Shown here piece after piece: positions 11,241 through 19,955 of a stretch of DNA of 64,000 nt. Below the pieces are notes generated by a model. It was not told the origin of the DNA, did no database searches, and saw nothing but the letters and a program-made list of their open reading frames with translations. This DNA comes from Thermoguttaceae bacterium. GTDB lineage: Bacteria; Planctomycetota; Planctomycetia; Pirellulales; Thermoguttaceae. Every line of letters begins with the position of its first letter. Position 1 is the stretch's first letter. The stretch covers positions 1-64,000 of the forward strand of contig JAFYQR010000203.1 in the NCBI GenBank assembly GCA_017559825.1, in the 5' to 3' direction. The position numbers and the translations under genes are program-made.

Positions 11241-13628
11241 TTAACTTTCCGCTCTCGACCGCCGTCCGCCAACCTTTCGAGCGACGAACGCCCCCAAACC
11301 GAGTAAAACGCAACCGAGCGCGAGCGTTTCCGCAAGGTCGCGCCCGCCGAGAAGCGCCGTTCGCCCGAGCCGTTCGCAGTCGACCGGCCAAACCTCCGCC
11401 GCGACGACTTCAGTTCCGCGTCGAGCGCCGCGACTCCGAACTCGCCCCGCTTGGTCGACGTGCGCCGAGAACCCGCCGTGCGTCGCGGCGACGACCGGCT
11501 TGCGATTCTCGACGGCGCGGAAAACTTGCGTCGCGAGGTGCCCGTCCGTCTGCGAACCGTTGCGGAACCAACCGTCGTTCGAAAGGCAAACCAAGACGTC
11601 CGGCTCCGCGCCGACGGCGGTCAACTCGCGGACTTGCTCTTTGACGTAATGCGGAATCGAACTTTCGAAGCATATATGCGGCGCGAAAAGAAGCGGCCCG
11701 GCTTGCTCATTTTGCTCATTTTCGCCGGTTTTCGCCGCTCCGCCGCGTCGAGCGACCGGGAAAACGACCGGGCCGACCCCGCGTTCGAGCGAAAAATCGG
11801 CGCAAACCGCCTTCAACGGAAACCAATCGGGAAGCAAGTCGGCGCCGGGAATATATTCGCCGCAAACAACGAGCCGCCGCTTCCCGTAAAGCCGAAACGC
11901 AAGCGGATTCGGGTCGTTCGGCGCGGTCGAAGCGGGCGTTTGCCAGTCGACGTATTTCGCCCAACCCTCCTCTTTCTCCAATTCCCCCGCTTTTCTCGTT
12001 TCCTCCGCTTCGTTTGCGGAAATCGGAGCCGGAACCGTCGCGTTAAAGCCGACGTATTTTTCCCCAAGCGCCGCGACGGTCGTCGAATCGAAACGCGGCG
12101 CGAAGACGGCGGCGTTGAAAACGGTCGTTTCGTCCTCGGCGTCGACGTCGACGAGAAGCGCGGTCGTCCCCAAAATCGCCGACGCGCCGAGCCGTTCCGT
12201 CAACTTTGCCGCGTCGCGCCGCGACCGAGCAAGCGCTCGCGACTTTTCCGCCCGCGCGATTCGCTCGACTTCCGCCGTCGCCGCGCTTGCCGATTCCGCC
12301 GTCGTTTTCTCGTCCCAAAAGACGTCGAAGCAACTTTCCGGCCAAACGACGACGTCGAACGGCGTTTCGAAACGCGCCGCCTCCGCCGCAAGCGCCAGAT
12401 AAGTTTCCGCAACCTTCCTATTTTGATAATCGGGAACCGGGAAGCGATACGTCGTTCCGTCTTGCAAGAGCGCGACCCGGCAAGGAACCGCGCCCGCTTC
12501 GAGCGCCGCCCGCTCCGCCGCGTCGAAAAATTCGAGTCGCCGAACGCCGAAACCGACGACGGCGCCGAAAATCGCGCCCGCCCCGCAAAGCGAAAGCGCG
12601 ACGCTCCCCCAATTCGCGCCGCTTGCCGACTCGCCGCGACTCTCCGCGCTTTCCGTTTTTGCGCAATTTCGCGAAACCGCCGCCGCGACCGCCGTTCCGA
12701 GGAGCGTTCCGATCGCGACGATCGCCGCGCCGACTCCGTATTCGCCGAACGGCTCGGCAATTTGGATAAATTGAGGAAAGTCGTAAAGAGAGTGCGAAAG
12801 CCCCGCGAAAGAAAAACCGCCGAGACCGCGGTTGCGCGCCCATTCGACCGCCGTCCAAGCGATCGGCGCCGCCAACCAAAGCGGAAATCCGAACCGTTTC
12901 GCCGTCCGCCGATTTCGCGCCGTTTCGCCGACTTGCTCGCCCTGCGCCGTTTGCCAATTTTGCGCTTTCCGCGTCGTTTGTCGAACTCGAAGCGTCAACG
13001 TCGGCGGCGTTTTTTTATTCCCCGCGTTTTCTTTATTTTGCGCGGTTTCCGCAATTCTCGCCGTCGCGACGCTCTCCGTCGTTAAAGTCGCCGCGTTTCG
13101 CGCCGTTTCTCCGTTTTGAGCGACGTCCGAACAATTTCGCTCCGGTCGAACGCCGGTCAACGCTCGAGTTGCCGCGACGAAAAGCGGAAAATAAATCGCC
13201 AAATACGCCGACGCCGCCAACCAGCCGAGCGTCGTCGCCGGGTGCGGATAGGAAATCCAAACGACCGTCGCCGCCCAAAAACAAAACGCCGCCGTCCAAT
13301 ATTGCCGATACTCGCCGCCGAAAAAGACGCGACCGATAAACCGCGCGAAGCGCCGAGTTCGCCGAAACCGCCGTTTTTCTCCGCCTTGACGAGACTTGTC
13401 GTTTTCCCTCGACTCTCCGTTTTGACGTCCAAAAGGGAACGCGCCGCCCGACGAACGGCGGCGCCAAGCGGCGAACTCGGGATTGAAGACGGTCGCGGCC
13501 CAAACGGCCGGAACGAAAAAGACCGCCCAACCGCTCCAAGACGGCGGCAGCGCGGCCCAATAAAGAAAAAACGCCCCGAACGCGGCGACGAACGGCGCGA
13601 ACCGTCCGACGTTAAATTTCGACGACAT
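11241..13628 (-). CDS. lnt: Apolipoprotein N-acyltransferase, enlarged by low-complexity insertions
   Basis: 795 residues; typical Lnt proteins are 500-550. The N-terminal half is multi-spanning membrane protein and the C-terminal half is a periplasmic nitrilase domain. The catalytic triad is visible: E431 in VVWPESCF, K583 in LYGKRRLVV and C653 in HICFESSIP, with GEYIPGADLLPDW and CLSNDGWFRNGSQTDGHL also matching the family. Lnt adds the third acyl chain to lipoproteins. Odd features: a charged segment (~residues 60-100) and a Gln/Thr/Asn/Arg-rich segment (~165-240, with TAQNKENAGNKK and similar repeats) are inserted between membrane spans. The final span (ETLALGCVLLGLGAFVAR) is present. RBS GAGGAA. 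Confidence 0.9.
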   Translation of the reverse strand: MSSKFNVGRFAPFVAAFGAFFLYWAALPPSWSGWAVFFVPAVWAATVFNPEFAAWRRRSSGGAFPFGRQNGESRENDKSRQGGEKRRFRRTRRFARFIGRVFFGGEYRQYWTAAFCFWAATVVWISYPHPATTLGWLAASAYLAIYFPLFVAATRALTGVRPERNCSDVAQNGETARNAATLTTESVATARIAETAQNKENAGNKKTPPTLTLRVRQTTRKAQNWQTAQGEQVGETARNRRTAKRFGFPLWLAAPIAWTAVEWARNRGLGGFSFAGLSHSLYDFPQFIQIAEPFGEYGVGAAIVAIGTLLGTAVAAAVSRNCAKTESAESRGESASGANWGSVALSLCGAGAIFGAVVGFGVRRLEFFDAAERAALEAGAVPCRVALLQDGTTYRFPVPDYQNRKVAETYLALAAEAARFETPFDVVVWPESCFDVFWDEKTTAESASAATAEVERIARAEKSRALARSRRDAAKLTERLGASAILGTTALLVDVDAEDETTVFNAAVFAPRFDSTTVAALGEKYVGFNATVPAPISANEAEETRKAGELEKEEGWAKYVDWQTPASTAPNDPNPLAFRLYGKRRLVVCGEYIPGADLLPDWFPLKAVCADFSLERGVGPVVFPVARRGGAAKTGENEQNEQAGPLLFAPHICFESSIPHYVKEQVRELTAVGAEPDVLVCLSNDGWFRNGSQTDGHLATQVFRAVENRKPVVAATHGGFSAHVDQAGRVRSRGARRGTEVVAAEVWPVDCERLGRTALLGGRDLAETLALGCVLLGLGAFVARKVGGRRSRAES

Positions 13629-13787: not shown

Positions 13788-15605
13788 TCAATTCAACGCC
13801 GCGGCGACGTCGGCGGCCGGTTCGTCGACGACGCGGACGCCCAAACGCTCGGCGAAGAGCGCGGCCAATTCCGGCGACCAAGCCGCGGTCGAGCTCGGCC
13901 CGACGAAAACGCGGCGATAACCGAGTCCGACCGCCGCCAAAAACGCCGCCGTCGACGTTTCGTCGAAACGACTAAAGAAGAACGCGACCGGCGAAACGGC
14001 GGGCTCGCGGTCGAGCTCGGCGCCGAGTTTTTCGGCGAATCGGAAAACGGCGCCCGCGTCGCAAACCCGCCCCAAATCGAGCGTTTTCGGCGTTCCGAAC
14101 GCGGTCGGCGCGGCCGGCTTGCGGTTGAAACGGAACTTCGCGTCGCCGAACGAAACGACCGTCGACTCCGCCGGAATCGCGTCGAAAAGACTCGCGAAAT
14201 AATCGCTTCCGTCCGGCGCGTCCTCGCCGCCGACGACGAAAACGCGTTTCGTTCTATCTTGTCGGAACGCTCGCGCCAGCTTGTCGATCATTCCGTCGAG
14301 CCCGTCGCCGCCGAATCCGACCGCGATCTTTTCAACCGCGGTCTTTCCGCGCGAATCGGCGAAACCGGGCGAATCGACCGCCGCTCGAATCAACGCCGAG
14401 AAGTCGAGTTTGCCGGCTCCGTCGCGCTCCAACGAAGCGACGCCGTCCGCTCGAGTCGCTCCGGAGGCGAAAATATAGTCGCGGTACGACTCGTCCGGCG
14501 TTTCGAGCGGCGTCGACGCGACGAGAATCGCGCCCGGAAACGCGCCGAACTCGCGTTGTTGGCCGAGCCAAGAGCCGCCGTAATGCCCGGCCAGTCGCTT
14601 GAACTTTTTAAACGCCGGGAACGAGTGCGCCGCGACCGCTTCGCCTCGCGTCCAAACGTTCAGCTCGCGCACTTCCGCCCGCTCGAGCAACTCGAGAAGA
14701 ACGTCGAAGTCGTCGCCGCTGAAGAGGACGCATTTGCCCGGCGCCGCCGACGCGCGAACGACCGTCGGGCTCGGCGTTCCGTATTCGAGAAACGTCCCGG
14801 TTTCGACGAGCCCGAGCGCGAGCGCCGCCAAACGGCCGGTCGTTTCGACCGCTCCGAACAACGCGTCGACGTCGGTCGACTCCGCCGCCAACAGCGCGAG
14901 CGTTTCGACGACGCCGTCGACGACGGAACGCTCGTTTTCGCGCCAAGTCGCGACTTCGGCTTCAATTCTTTCCGCCTCGGCGACGAGCGCGGCCTTCGCC
15001 TCTTTTTCCTTCGCGTCGCGAGCTCGCGTTTCCTTGACGCGGGCTCGAATCCCTTGCCCCTCGAACTCGCGCCGAGGAAGCGTTCGCTCGCCGAGTTCCG
15101 TCGCTCGGCGCAGAAGCGTCGCGACGCCCTTCAAGCCGTCGACGATCGTTTCGCGCAAACCGAACGCGGTCGCGCCGAGTCGGTCGAGCTCCGCCGTCGC
15201 GTCGTATTCCTCGCCTTGCGCCGCGAGTTCGTCGATCGTCGCGTCGTCGGGCTCGGCGGCGGCGAGCTCCTGTTCGCGGAGCTGATTTTCCAAACTTTCT
15301 TGATACTCCGGCTCTTGTTCGGCGCCCAAATATTCCGCCAACTGAAAAACGAGGTCGGCCTTCAAAATAAGGCGGGTCAGCTCCCGCGCGTTCGCGCTCG
15401 ACGCTCTCGACGCGGCTTCCAACGCTTCGAGCAGGAACCGCTCGACCGGAACGCTGCGATTCCCCCAAGCGAGCGCTTTCGCCGCTTCGGTCGCGATATG
15501 TTTGCACCAAGCGAGCAACTGATTCCGAAGACGCGTCGTTTTCGGCTCCTCGGCGCCGCGCGCTTCGGACGTTCGTTCGTTTCGATTCTCAAACATTTCG
15601 TTCAC
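13788..15605 (-). CDS. Hybrid-cluster-protein (Hcp) homologue lacking nearly all Fe-S cluster ligands
   Basis: 605 residues. The C-terminal ~340 residues follow Hcp/hydroxylamine reductase closely: GKCVLFSGDDFDVLLELLE, AHSFPAFKKFKRLAGHYGGSW, FPGAILVAS, VGGEDAPDGSDYF, AKFRFN, LDLGR. By hand alignment to E. coli/Desulfovibrio Hcp, the hybrid-cluster ligands are replaced: His->D298, Cys->P366, Cys->E461, Cys->D488, Cys->V514 (with C515 next to it), Glu->D548; only the Glu of RGE (E322) remains. The N-terminal four-Cys [4Fe-4S]/[2Fe-2S] motif is also gone, leaving a Lys/Glu/Ala-rich helical N-terminus. The fold is probably kept but classical hydroxylamine or NO reduction is not expected. GTG start at 15605; an in-frame ATG at 15596 is equally plausible. 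It is cytoplasmic (no signal peptide). Confidence 0.85.
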   Translation of the reverse strand: MNEMFENRNERTSEARGAEEPKTTRLRNQLLAWCKHIATEAAKALAWGNRSVPVERFLLEALEAASRASSANARELTRLILKADLVFQLAEYLGAEQEPEYQESLENQLREQELAAAEPDDATIDELAAQGEEYDATAELDRLGATAFGLRETIVDGLKGVATLLRRATELGERTLPRREFEGQGIRARVKETRARDAKEKEAKAALVAEAERIEAEVATWRENERSVVDGVVETLALLAAESTDVDALFGAVETTGRLAALALGLVETGTFLEYGTPSPTVVRASAAPGKCVLFSGDDFDVLLELLERAEVRELNVWTRGEAVAAHSFPAFKKFKRLAGHYGGSWLGQQREFGAFPGAILVASTPLETPDESYRDYIFASGATRADGVASLERDGAGKLDFSALIRAAVDSPGFADSRGKTAVEKIAVGFGGDGLDGMIDKLARAFRQDRTKRVFVVGGEDAPDGSDYFASLFDAIPAESTVVSFGDAKFRFNRKPAAPTAFGTPKTLDLGRVCDAGAVFRFAEKLGAELDREPAVSPVAFFFSRFDETSTAAFLAAVGLGYRRVFVGPSSTAAWSPELAALFAERLGVRVVDEPAADVAAALN

Positions 15606-16347
15606 CGTTGTTCTTTCGTTTATAACAAATAAGGACGACGCCGACGCTCGCGGCGAAAAGCGGCCGCGTTAAACGCAAAAACGGTCGAACGAACGCGGCC
15701 CCCGCAGAGGCTCGCCTCGCCCTACCGTCCTCGACGCCGTCGAACGCGCCGACTTCGCCGCCGTCGCGTTCGCGATTTCTTCTGTCTTTTACCTAAATTA
15801 ACATCTCAAATTTTTACGTTTACTCCATTATAAGGCCTTCGACGCCAAAAAGCAACGCTTTTTAAAAATTTTTCGAAATTTTCTTCGCAAAAATCGCCAA
15901 GCGCGTCGAATCGTTCGCTTTTTTCGCCCCGTTCGACCGACCGAACGGCGTTTTTTTCTCGTTCCCCGTTTTGTCAACCGTTTTTCTTCGCAATTCCCGT
16001 TTTTCGTCGACGAATCGCGCCGAACGCAGCCTCCGCTAACGCTTGAAAATCGACGGAATTGTTTCCGAACGAAGCGTTAAAATAGCGAGTCTGCGCAAAG
16101 CGCGCGACTTACGGCGATTCCTCGAGCGAAAGGCGCGGAGAAATAGAAAAGAAGACCTGCCCCCCGCTTGCCAAGACTCGAAACTGGAGGTAGAATGAGG
16201 GCAAAAAATATAGGACGGGCTCGCCCGCCCCGCGCGGCGTCGAATCGCGACGTTTACGAACGTCTTTTTCGGCGAAACGACGCGACGCGCTTCCTTGCGA
16301 CGCTTTTATAGAGGCGTCCCGAACGAATATTTTACTAGGAGACTTAA
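15606..16347. other. Intergenic region, 742 bp, between the Hcp-like gene and nifJ
   Basis: Divergent control region. It holds a 9-bp perfect inverted repeat GGCCGCGTT/AACGCGGCC (15662-15700), two compact hairpins with the same GGCTCGCC-type core (GAGGC-TC-GCCTC at 15707 and CGGGC-TC-GCCCG at 16216), AT-rich stretches around 15785-15860, a TAAAAT box near 16078 and a short reading frame at 16195-16311. No tRNA or known riboswitch pattern was recognised. Confidence 0.6.
16195..16311 (+). CDS. Possible 38-residue small protein or leader peptide upstream of nifJ
   Basis: ATG at 16195 is preceded by a strong TGGAGGTAGA Shine-Dalgarno with ideal spacing. The frame reads MRAKNIGRARPP... and ends at TAG 16309-16311, 37 nt before the nifJ start. 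The product is Arg-rich and resembles nothing known. The frame also contains the CGGGC-TC-GCCCG hairpin (16216-16227), so translation could influence folding of the nifJ leader. It may equally be chance: the only support is the RBS and position. Confidence 0.3.
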   Translation: MRAKNIGRARPPRAASNRDVYERLFRRNDATRFLATLL

Positions 16348-19300
16348 ATGAGCGACGAAAAACGCTTCGTCATGTGCGACGGCAACGAAGCCGCCGCGAT
16401 GATCGCGCATCTTTGCAACGAAGTTATGGCCATTTACCCGATCACGCCGTCGTCGACGATGGGCGAATTGACCGACGATTGGGCCGCGAAAGGCAAAAAG
16501 AACCTCTTCGGAACGATTCCGCAAGTCGTTGAAATGCAAAGCGAAGCCGGGGCGGCGGGCGCTGTTCACGGCTCGTTGCAAGCGGGCGCGCTGACCTGTA
16601 CGTTTACGGCGTCGCAAGGTCTCCTCCTGATGATTCCGAATATGTTCAAGATCGCCGGCGAACAAACGCCGACCGTCTTCCACGTTACGGCTCGCTGCAT
16701 CGCCTCGCACGCGCTTTCGATCTTCGGCGACCACTCCGACGTTTTGGCGACCCGCTCCTGCGGTTGGGCGATGCTCTGCGGCGGCACGGTTCAAGAAACG
16801 CACGACATGGCGATGATCTCGTACTCCTCGACGCACCGCAGCCATATCCCGTTCCTCCACTTCTTCGACGGTTTCCGCACCTCGCACGAAGTCAACAAAC
16901 TGGAAAAACTTCCGGAATCGACCGTCCGCGAAATGATGGACCTCGACGCCGTCCGCAACTTCCGCGAACGCGCCCTCAATCCGCACAGCCCGGTCATCCG
17001 CGGCACCGCGCAAAACCCGGACGTTTTCTTCCAAGGTCGCGAAGCCTGCAACCCGGCTTACGACGCCGTTCCGGGTATCGTCCAAGAAGAAATGGACAAA
17101 TTCGCGAAACTGACCGGCCGCCAATACCGCATCTTCGACTACTACGGCGACCCGAACGCCGAAAACGTCGTTGTTATTATGGCGAGCGGTTCCGGTATCG
17201 TCGAAGAATATATCGACTTCATCGGTAAAGACAAAAACGTCGGTATGGTCAACGTCCGCCTCTACCGCCCGTTCGACGAAGCCGCGTTCGTCGCCGCGTT
17301 GCCGAAAACGACCAAGAAAATCGCCGTTCTCGACCGCACCAAGGAACCGGGCGCCGGCGGCGAACCGCTGTACCTCGACGTCGTTTCGGCTCTCGTTCGC
17401 AACTGGGAAGGCGCGCTTCCGTTCGTCGCCGCCGGTCGTTACGGCCTCGCGTCGAAAGACTTCACTCCGGCGATGGTCAAAGCGATCTACGACGAACTCG
17501 CGAAAGACGCTCCGAAGAAGAAGTTCACGATCGGTATCAAAGACGACCTCACCAACCTCAGCATCGACTACGATCCGACCTTCTCGACCGAAGCGGACGA
17601 CGTTCGTCGTTGCATCTTCTACGGTCTCGGTAGCGACGGCACCGTCGGCGCGAACAAAGAAACGACGAAAATCGTCGGCGAATACACCGAAAACTTCAGC
17701 CAAGGCTACTTCGTTTACGACTCGAAGAAAGCCGGCGCCGTCACGGTTTCGCACCTCCGCTTCTCGCCGCGCCCGATCAAGGGTTCGTACCTGATTTACC
17801 AAGCGAACTTCGTCGCGTGCCACCAATTCGTCTTCACGCAAAAGCTCGATATGCTCTCGACGATCGTCAAGGGCGGGACGTTCCTCCTGAACGCTCCGTA
17901 CAGCGCCGCGGAAGTTTGGGATCACCTCCCGATCGAACTCCAAAAAGAGATCGTCGAGAAGGAACTCGAATTCTACGTCGTCGACGCGGTCAAAGTCGCG
18001 AAAGCGGCGGGCATGGGCGGCCGTATCAACACCGTTATGGAAACCTGCTTCTTCAAGCTCGGCGAATTCATGCCGGTCGACGAAGGCATCGGCTACATCA
18101 AAGCCAGTATTAAGAAGGTTTACGGCAAGAAGGGCGACGAAATCGTTCAAAAGAACTACGCGGCGGTCGACTCGTCCCTCGCGGCGCTCGAAAAGGTCGA
18201 CTATCCGAAAGAAATCACGTCGACGTTCCACCGTCGCAACGGCGTCGTCGGCGACGCGCCGGAATTCGTCAAGAACGTTCTCGGCGAAATCTTGGCCTCG
18301 CGCGGCGAAGAACTCACCGTCAAAGACATGCTCCCGACGGCGGACGGCACGTTCCCGGTCGGCACGACGAAATACGAAAAACGCGGCATCGCGATCGACA
18401 TTCCGATTTGGGACAGCGAACTCTGCATCCAATGCGGCAACTGCTCGCTCGTCTGCCCGCACGCCGCCATCCGTATGAAGATTTACGACGCCGCGAACGG
18501 CGCGCCGGAATCGTTCAAGTCGGTCGACGCGAAAACGAAGGAATTCGAAGGCAAGAAATTCACGCTCCAAGTCGCGCCGGACGACTGCACCGGCTGCGGT
18601 ATGTGCGTTTACGTCTGCCCGGCCAAGAGCAAGACGGAAGAAGGTAAGAAAGCGATCAACCTCGAAAACAAGATCGCCAACGAAGCCGCCGAACGCGCCA
18701 ACTGGGATTACTTCCTCACGATTCCGGACTACGACCGCTCCAAAGCGAAGGTCGACACCGTCAAGGGTTCGCAACTCTTGCTCCCGCTCTTCGAGTTCTC
18801 GGGCTCCTGCGCGGGTTGCGGCGAAACGCCTTACGTCAAACTCGTTACGCAACTCTTCGGCGACCGTATGCTGATCGCGAACGCGACCGGTTGCTCCTCG
18901 ATTTACGGCGGCAACCTCCCGACGACGCCGTACACGACGAACGCGGAAGGTTGCGGTCCGGCTTGGGCGAACTCCTTGTTCGAAGACAACGCCGAATTCG
19001 GTCTCGGCATGCGCGCGGCGGTCGACCAACAAGTCGGCTTCATGAAGGAAATCCTCGTCGCGAAGAAAGACCAACTCGGCGACGCGTTGGTCGAAAACCT
19101 CCTCGGCAACAAACAAGAAACCGAAGGCGAAATCGCGCAACAACGCGCTTGGGTCAAAGAACTTAAAGCGAAACTCGCGGAACTTAACTGCGACTGCGAA
19201 CAAGCGAAGCTCCTCGAAATGTCGGCCGACTACCTCGTTCGCCGCAGCGCGTGGATCATCGGCGGCGACGGTTGGGCTTACGACATCGGCTACGGCGGTC

Positions 19301-19878
19301 TCGACCACGTCGTCGCGTCGACAAAGGACGTCAACATCCTCGTCCTCGACACCGAAGTTTACTCGAACACCGGCGGTCAAGCGTCGAAATCGACGCCGAA
19401 GGGCGCGGTCGCGAAATTCGCCGCGGGCGGTAAAGCGACGGGTAAAAAAGACCTCGGCATGATGGCCGTTTCGTACGGCACCTGCTTCGTCGGTCAAATT
19501 TCGCTCGGCGCGAACCCGGCGCACGCGATCAAAACGCTCGTCGCGGCGGAATCGTACAAGGGCCCGTCGCTCGTCATCGCGTACTCGCACTGCATCGCGC
19601 AAGGCGTCGATATGAAGACCGGTATGGAACTTCAAAAAGAAGCCGTCAAGTGCGGTTACTGGCCGCTTTGGTCGTACGACCCGCGTTTGGAAAAACCGTT
19701 CCAACTCGCCAGCAAGGCTCCGGAAGGCGCGTTGAAAGACTTCGAAGCGAAGCAAAACCGCTTCAAGTCCTTGAAACGTATCAATCCGGAAGCCGCCGCC
19801 GCTTACGAAGCGCAAGCGCAAGAAGATATTTACAAGCGCTACGAATACTACAAAGCGCTGACCGAAGTCCAAAAATGA
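16348..19878 (+). CDS. nifJ: Pyruvate:ferredoxin (flavodoxin) oxidoreductase, single-chain
   Basis: 1176 residues, full length for the homodimeric NifJ/PFOR type. Domain order is complete: N-terminal pyruvate-binding/transketolase domain (AIYPITPSSTMGEL), domain II, gamma domain (VTVSHLRFSPRPI), two-[4Fe-4S] ferredoxin domain (CIQCGNCSLVCP from C693 and CTGCGMCVYVCP from C747), and the C-terminal thiamine-pyrophosphate domain with the cluster-binding SCAGCGETPY, GCSSIYGG and GDGWAYDIGYGGLDH. It converts pyruvate and CoA to acetyl-CoA and CO2, reducing ferredoxin or flavodoxin, in anaerobic metabolism. The ATG follows ACTAGGAGACTTAA. It is monocistronic: a strong terminator follows. Codon use is highly biased (CTC, GTC, ATC, CGC), consistent with high expression. 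Confidence 0.97.
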   Translation: MSDEKRFVMCDGNEAAAMIAHLCNEVMAIYPITPSSTMGELTDDWAAKGKKNLFGTIPQVVEMQSEAGAAGAVHGSLQAGALTCTFTASQGLLLMIPNMFKIAGEQTPTVFHVTARCIASHALSIFGDHSDVLATRSCGWAMLCGGTVQETHDMAMISYSSTHRSHIPFLHFFDGFRTSHEVNKLEKLPESTVREMMDLDAVRNFRERALNPHSPVIRGTAQNPDVFFQGREACNPAYDAVPGIVQEEMDKFAKLTGRQYRIFDYYGDPNAENVVVIMASGSGIVEEYIDFIGKDKNVGMVNVRLYRPFDEAAFVAALPKTTKKIAVLDRTKEPGAGGEPLYLDVVSALVRNWEGALPFVAAGRYGLASKDFTPAMVKAIYDELAKDAPKKKFTIGIKDDLTNLSIDYDPTFSTEADDVRRCIFYGLGSDGTVGANKETTKIVGEYTENFSQGYFVYDSKKAGAVTVSHLRFSPRPIKGSYLIYQANFVACHQFVFTQKLDMLSTIVKGGTFLLNAPYSAAEVWDHLPIELQKEIVEKELEFYVVDAVKVAKAAGMGGRINTVMETCFFKLGEFMPVDEGIGYIKASIKKVYGKKGDEIVQKNYAAVDSSLAALEKVDYPKEITSTFHRRNGVVGDAPEFVKNVLGEILASRGEELTVKDMLPTADGTFPVGTTKYEKRGIAIDIPIWDSELCIQCGNCSLVCPHAAIRMKIYDAANGAPESFKSVDAKTKEFEGKKFTLQVAPDDCTGCGMCVYVCPAKSKTEEGKKAINLENKIANEAAERANWDYFLTIPDYDRSKAKVDTVKGSQLLLPLFEFSGSCAGCGETPYVKLVTQLFGDRMLIANATGCSSIYGGNLPTTPYTTNAEGCGPAWANSLFEDNAEFGLGMRAAVDQQVGFMKEILVAKKDQLGDALVENLLGNKQETEGEIAQQRAWVKELKAKLAELNCDCEQAKLLEMSADYLVRRSAWIIGGDGWAYDIGYGGLDHVVASTKDVNILVLDTEVYSNTGGQASKSTPKGAVAKFAAGGKATGKKDLGMMAVSYGTCFVGQISLGANPAHAIKTLVAAESYKGPSLVIAYSHCIAQGVDMKTGMELQKEAVKCGYWPLWSYDPRLEKPFQLASKAPEGALKDFEAKQNRFKSLKRINPEAAAAYEAQAQEDIYKRYEYYKALTEVQK

Positions 19879-19955
19879 CAAAGGTTTAACCGCAAGCCGA
19901 CGCAAAGCGCGAGTCGAAACGCCGATTCGCGCTTTGGTCGACCTACAAAAGAAAA

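Follow-up and report, generated by a model that had tools for sequence, protein, structure and literature searches.

Results

An HCP-like gene between PFOR and Lnt

The window (the whole stretch of 64,000 nucleotides that was analysed) carries on its minus strand, at 13788-15605, a gene for a protein that resembles the hybrid-cluster protein (Hcp) and has neither of its cluster sites. The reading frame is unbroken and encodes 605 amino acids from a GTG at 15605, in agreement with the original prediction of a full-length gene with an intact frame. Since the methionine at codon 4 is invariant or nearly so across the genus, the ATG at 15596 is probably the true start, which would give a protein of 602 amino acids. 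The protein has the Prismane domain of the HCP fold (Pfam, 123.5 bits; cut-off 27), and it scores 247 and 256 bits with the NCBIfam models TIGR01703 and NF003658, below the cut-offs of both (361 and 367). Residues 236-599 align to solved HCPs in the PDB, with no gap around any ligand. Even at E values up to 1, a search with the CODH model did not match the window protein, and the fold is also farther from CODH than from HCP. On the opposite strand, an ORF of 457 amino acids (14259-15632, plus strand) mirrors the gene and is probably a by-product of high-GC codon usage.

The divergent neighbour, named from its sequence, encodes pyruvate:ferredoxin oxidoreductase (PFOR; 16348-19878, plus strand), and the downstream neighbour encodes apolipoprotein N-acyltransferase (Lnt; 11241-13628, minus strand). 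In 16 of the 17 genus loci, PFOR is the immediate, divergently transcribed neighbour, the exception being a contig end. Likewise, Lnt lies downstream of the HCP-like gene in 14 of 17 loci, the others again reaching contig ends, and a GH97 gene intervenes in many relatives (8 loci). Because the Lnt side is equally conserved, the adjacency to PFOR may be plain local synteny within the genus. In several species, the HCP-like gene seems to come first in a run that continues with GH97, Lnt and NAGPA genes. Compared with its neighbourhood, the Lnt-like gene itself is fast-evolving (dN/dS about 0.5), and it contains long low-complexity stretches. An antisense ORF of 1199 amino acids (16306-19905, minus strand) mirrors PFOR and is probably another by-product of high-GC codon usage.

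A candidate promoter, TTGCTT-17-TATAAT (15827-15855, minus strand), lies some 220 bp before the start. Its -10 element is identical in six related genomes and its -35 element is weak; a consensus promoter scan did not flag it. The Rfam search of the intergenic region was without a match for an RNA element. Between the HCP-like gene and Lnt, the search for a terminator gave weak consensus hits only, and a perfect 12-bp inverted repeat (GGTTCGAGCGTC / GACGCTCGAACC) lies there from 13691, without a clear T run.

Loss of the ligands of both clusters

An ordinary Hcp is encoded elsewhere in the genome of the window (G000:C74, L001), which makes the HCP-like protein a paralogue, and this Hcp served as the reference for the ligand comparison. 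The hybrid cluster is bound by one His, two Glu and four Cys; from the ordinary Hcp to the window protein these positions read H298D, E322E, C366P, C461E, C488D, C514V and E548D, so that one of the seven ligands (E322) is left. The six substitutions are exactly those listed in the original prediction. In D. vulgaris numbering, we take D298 to be His244, E322 to be Glu268, P366 to be Cys312, E461 to be the persulfide ligand Cys406, D488 to be Cys434, V514 to be Cys459 and D548 to be Glu494. The absence of the N-terminal Cys motif was also borne out: according to the alignment with the Hcp of the same genome and the Cys count, residues 1-26 (15528-15605, minus strand) lie opposite the [4Fe-4S] motif, the four-Cys motif is missing from the window protein, and there is no Cys in residues 1-33. 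The whole protein has three Cys residues (C34, C292 and C515).

Every one of the 20 genus genomes (Thermoguttaceae MAGs, mostly from ruminant gut) has the gene, although three copies are incomplete: a fragment that ends at residue 271 (G076), a C-terminal fragment (G058) and a copy with an internal deletion (G071). The same ligand and Cys losses recur in the 16 other full-length proteins of the genus, giving 17 of 17, and therefore they are not due to chance. In the copy from G071 (L025/L049, C12), about 115 residues including the arm described below are lost in frame between two short, similar ALDGVAD-like stretches, which is either a real deletion or an assembly collapse. Scanning GTDB genomes with two motifs gave 17 loci, every one of them labelled as Thermoguttaceae or planctomycete and most with ruminant hosts or samples, and did not find the same protein outside the genus. 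Among 397 genomes sampled from the order and 392 from the phylum, there was no further full-length member; in these samples, full-length matches with the arm from beyond the genus came only from g27 and g34, two genera of the same family.

The HCP-like gene is constrained and under purifying selection. For pairs with dS below 1.1, its dN/dS is 0.09-0.24, compared with 0.08-0.10 for the neighbouring PFOR and 0.46-0.52 for Lnt. Among the closest six genomes, the former catalytic domains have the lowest dN/dS (0.150), followed by the arm (0.177) and the N-terminal part (0.235).

The former hybrid-cluster site

At the former site, acidic residues are kept at three positions (all coordinates on the minus strand). 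D298 (14712-14714) is D or E and E322 (14640-14642) is E or D in every genus member, and D488 (14142-14144) is Asp in all 17 full-length proteins and Glu in L025, which has the internal deletion. The other positions vary: P366 (14508-14510) is P or T, E461 (14223-14225) is E, D, Q or V, residue 514 is V, A, E or L, and D548 is D or G. C515, next to V514 (both at 14061-14066), is variable as well and is confined to the close subclade of the window. New invariant residues appear beside the lost ligands: R513 (14067-14069), next to the position of Cys459, and E549, next to D548 (both at 13959-13964), are each Gln in the ligand-bearing relatives, and the invariant S551 is Ala there. Eight positions are fixed differently between the genus and these relatives, and three of the eight are at or beside a ligand (488, 513 and 549). 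In addition, neighbours of the former site are bulkier in the genus (V295F/Y and Y318W; F295 and W318 in the window protein). Judged from these residues, the old hybrid-cluster site is rewired and not random.

These patterns partly support an earlier suggestion that the acidic substitutions could form a different metal site: D298, E322 and D488 are always acidic, but positions 461 and 548 cannot be conserved ligands. That other Cys residues hold an alternative Fe-S cluster was considered and rejected: C292 alone is invariant and C34 nearly so, which makes such a cluster in the genus proteins very unlikely. No His is invariant among the 17 full-length proteins (H327 is found in 14 and H341 in 15).

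Fold and helical arm

The AlphaFold2 models of the window protein (pLDDT 86.9, pTM 0.90) and of a 41%-identical genus member (pLDDT 86.3, pTM 0.88) both have HCPs as first-ranking Foldseek matches. The window protein shares the fold of the class I HCP of D. vulgaris (1e2u; TM-score 0.78), and the second member that of M. thermolithotrophicus (8cnr; TM-score 0.82). The C-terminal motifs are common to the window protein and class I HCPs (1e2u/1e1d, 8cnr; TIGR01703/NF003658), from which the window protein differs in the missing N-terminal Cys motif, the six changed ligands, the score below the NCBIfam cut-offs and an extra arm. Hence the predicted conservation of the rest of the fold applies to the C-terminal domains, whereas the N-terminal half has diverged and contains an insertion. 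The loops round the former cluster are less confident regions of the models (blocks of pLDDT 63-80), which is compatible with a plugged site, but equally with one that is open or stabilised by a ligand.

The insertion spans about 50 residues (175-226; 14928-15083, minus strand) and is an antiparallel helix pair in the model, where it extends two helices (residues 145-192 and 198-240); it is seen again in the 41%-identical member. The original prediction had missed this arm, as well as the ordinary Hcp of the genome and the ligand-bearing relatives of the same branch. In class III HCPs (M. marburgensis), about 100 residues in the middle are missing and the protein is a homodimer (PMC10502027), whereas the middle region of the window protein is longer, not shorter. 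Charges at the turn of the arm are conserved among 27 arm-bearing proteins (R196 basic in 96%, E200 acidic in 89%, K201 basic in 100% and K204 basic in 85%). As the turn is conserved in ligand-bearing and ligand-free members alike, the arm predates the loss of the ligands. One genus member (L026, G066:C93) has a long PAEEQ tandem repeat inserted after the arm, in the linker past window residue 240 or so.

Relatives with complete and partial ligand sets

Five arm-bearing proteins from g34 (L020-L024) and two from g27 (L015 and L018) have the complete set of seven hybrid-cluster ligands together with the N-terminal Cys motif, of which the first part lies beyond a contig end in L021. They belong to the same branch as the window protein and have the same helical arm, but differ in owning both ligand sets and in another gene neighbourhood; neither PFOR nor Lnt was found beside their genes in the stretches read. 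A third g27 protein, a fragment, keeps the ligands from E268 onward. Two further g34 proteins (L029 from G083 and L030 from G078) have Ser for Glu494, and L030 additionally has Asp for Glu268, with the N-terminal Cys motif intact. In L019 (g27; G039), five of the seven hybrid ligands are gone (S/E/H/C/S/L/D) and all four N-terminal Cys are kept. With the NCBIfam Hcp model (cut-off 367), the ligand-bearing relatives pass at 627 and 641 bits and the genus members fail at 256, 233 and 240 bits. Proteins of the L019 and L029/L030 types share the arm with the window protein and differ from it in the intact N-terminal Cys motif and in passing this model (470 bits for L019 and 490 bits).

The genus members are monophyletic (support 100/100), and the arm-bearing proteins group in a single branch that excludes the ordinary HCPs, among them the ordinary Hcp of the genus itself (100/100 in a tree with ordinary HCPs as outgroup and L019 omitted; the grouping is the same with all rows). 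The search for homologues with a tree that had been proposed as a check thus returned the same losses in a single clade with low dN/dS. L019 came out as the sister of the genus clade (100/99), and grouping the g27 proteins in one clade was rejected (p = 0.0103); since L019 and the genus clade are both long branches, L019 may be an independent loss instead. Because L019, L029 and L030 keep the N-terminal Cys residues, loss can begin at the hybrid ligands and reach the N-terminal cluster afterwards, and this is apparently the order in which it happened.

Ordinary Hcp in the genus

An ordinary Hcp was found in 10 of the 20 genus genomes. The other 10 keep the HCP-like gene without it, and they include several that are about 90% complete (G067 and G073). 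Most of the Hcp-less genomes have a CODH-like gene; the one that was scored reached 457 bits over a partial stretch (cut-off 478).

Discussion

As far as sequences can tell, the lineage-wide, cluster-free HCP paralogue is real, and in this genus the protein has probably turned into something other than the known Hcp enzyme. The sequences show an arm-bearing HCP branch in Thermoguttaceae, whose members in related genera range from all ligands to partial loss of the hybrid site, and the genus of the window has lost both cluster sites and kept the fold. We consider it reasonably likely that the protein is a maintained, iron-free HCP paralogue (a pseudoenzyme) with a charge-network plug in place of the cluster and a binding or scaffold role. 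The cavity would be closed by D298, E322, D488 and E549 around R513, with help from the bulkier F295 and W318; the invariant Arg and the larger neighbours are why we favour a salt-bridged plug. A protein plugged in this way would fold without iron and would be unable to carry out the NO/hydroxylamine chemistry of Hcp. More tentatively, the protein might bind something through its surface and the arm's charged tip, as a scaffold, chaperone or regulator in anaerobic metabolism, for which the adjacent PFOR would be the first candidate partner. The earlier proposal of a maintained pseudoenzyme or a new function is upheld by the presence of the gene in every genome of a single clade, with intact frames, low dN/dS and the same fold. 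A decaying gene or a MAG artefact, for which the member with the long internal deletion might speak, is rejected on these grounds; the 17 genomes with intact frames, the dN/dS far below 1, the conserved candidate promoter and the invariant new residues make it extremely improbable.

The same four carboxylates might instead bind a redox-inactive or a mono- or dinuclear metal and so provide a new activity. The three acids kept in every member are former ligands of one cluster, which by homology with HCP should share one pocket, and E549 is invariant, but E461 and D548 are not conserved, the genus has no invariant His, and D488, E549 and E322 each stand at the beginning of a helix in the model and may be N-caps. 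The invariant R513 beside the site speaks for a charge that is balanced by Arg and not by a metal, and we regard a metal site as rather unlikely. A function together with PFOR, as redox partner or in its protection or assembly, seems less likely still. The two genes are adjacent and divergent in nearly all loci and PFOR is not adjacent in the ligand-bearing relatives, so that the association goes with the loss of the clusters; yet Lnt is equally conserved on the other side wherever contigs reach, and the run with GH97, Lnt and NAGPA genes points to the cell envelope. Pseudoenzymes often regulate active paralogues, and the genome of the window and nine others of the genus do encode an ordinary Hcp of which the protein could be a regulatory or chaperone subunit. 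The ten genomes that retain the gene without Hcp make such a role highly improbable.

In a broader reading, the protein would represent a new class built on the HCP fold: by way of intermediates that survive, the Fe-S-O site would have become a conserved site of carboxylates and arginine that has a non-redox chemistry or a ligand of its own, and the arm would dock a partner of anaerobic pyruvate metabolism. We hold this broader reading to be doubtful. The usual view of HCPs and CODHs is that they are metalloenzymes with ligands conserved in every class (PMC10502027), and in surveys ambiguous sequences are examined for the clusters (PMC13056359). A search of titles and abstracts in one open-access library found no description of cluster-free or ligand-deficient HCPs. 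CODH-V offers a precedent of a paralogue without the normal active site of its family (PMC10502027, PMC13056359). CODH-V (CooS-V of Carboxydothermus hydrogenoformans) and other CODHs have a fold related to that of the window protein, but CODH-V keeps a hybrid-type Fe-S-O cluster, whereas the window protein is without a ligand set for one. A cluster-less HCP throughout a genus, together with relatives that have full or partial ligand sets, provides a natural series for the order of metal loss under selection. It also carries a warning for annotation, in that proteins missing most hybrid-cluster ligands can still be scored as hydroxylamine reductase; L019 (G039:C51) is such a case, and its label is likely a misannotation.
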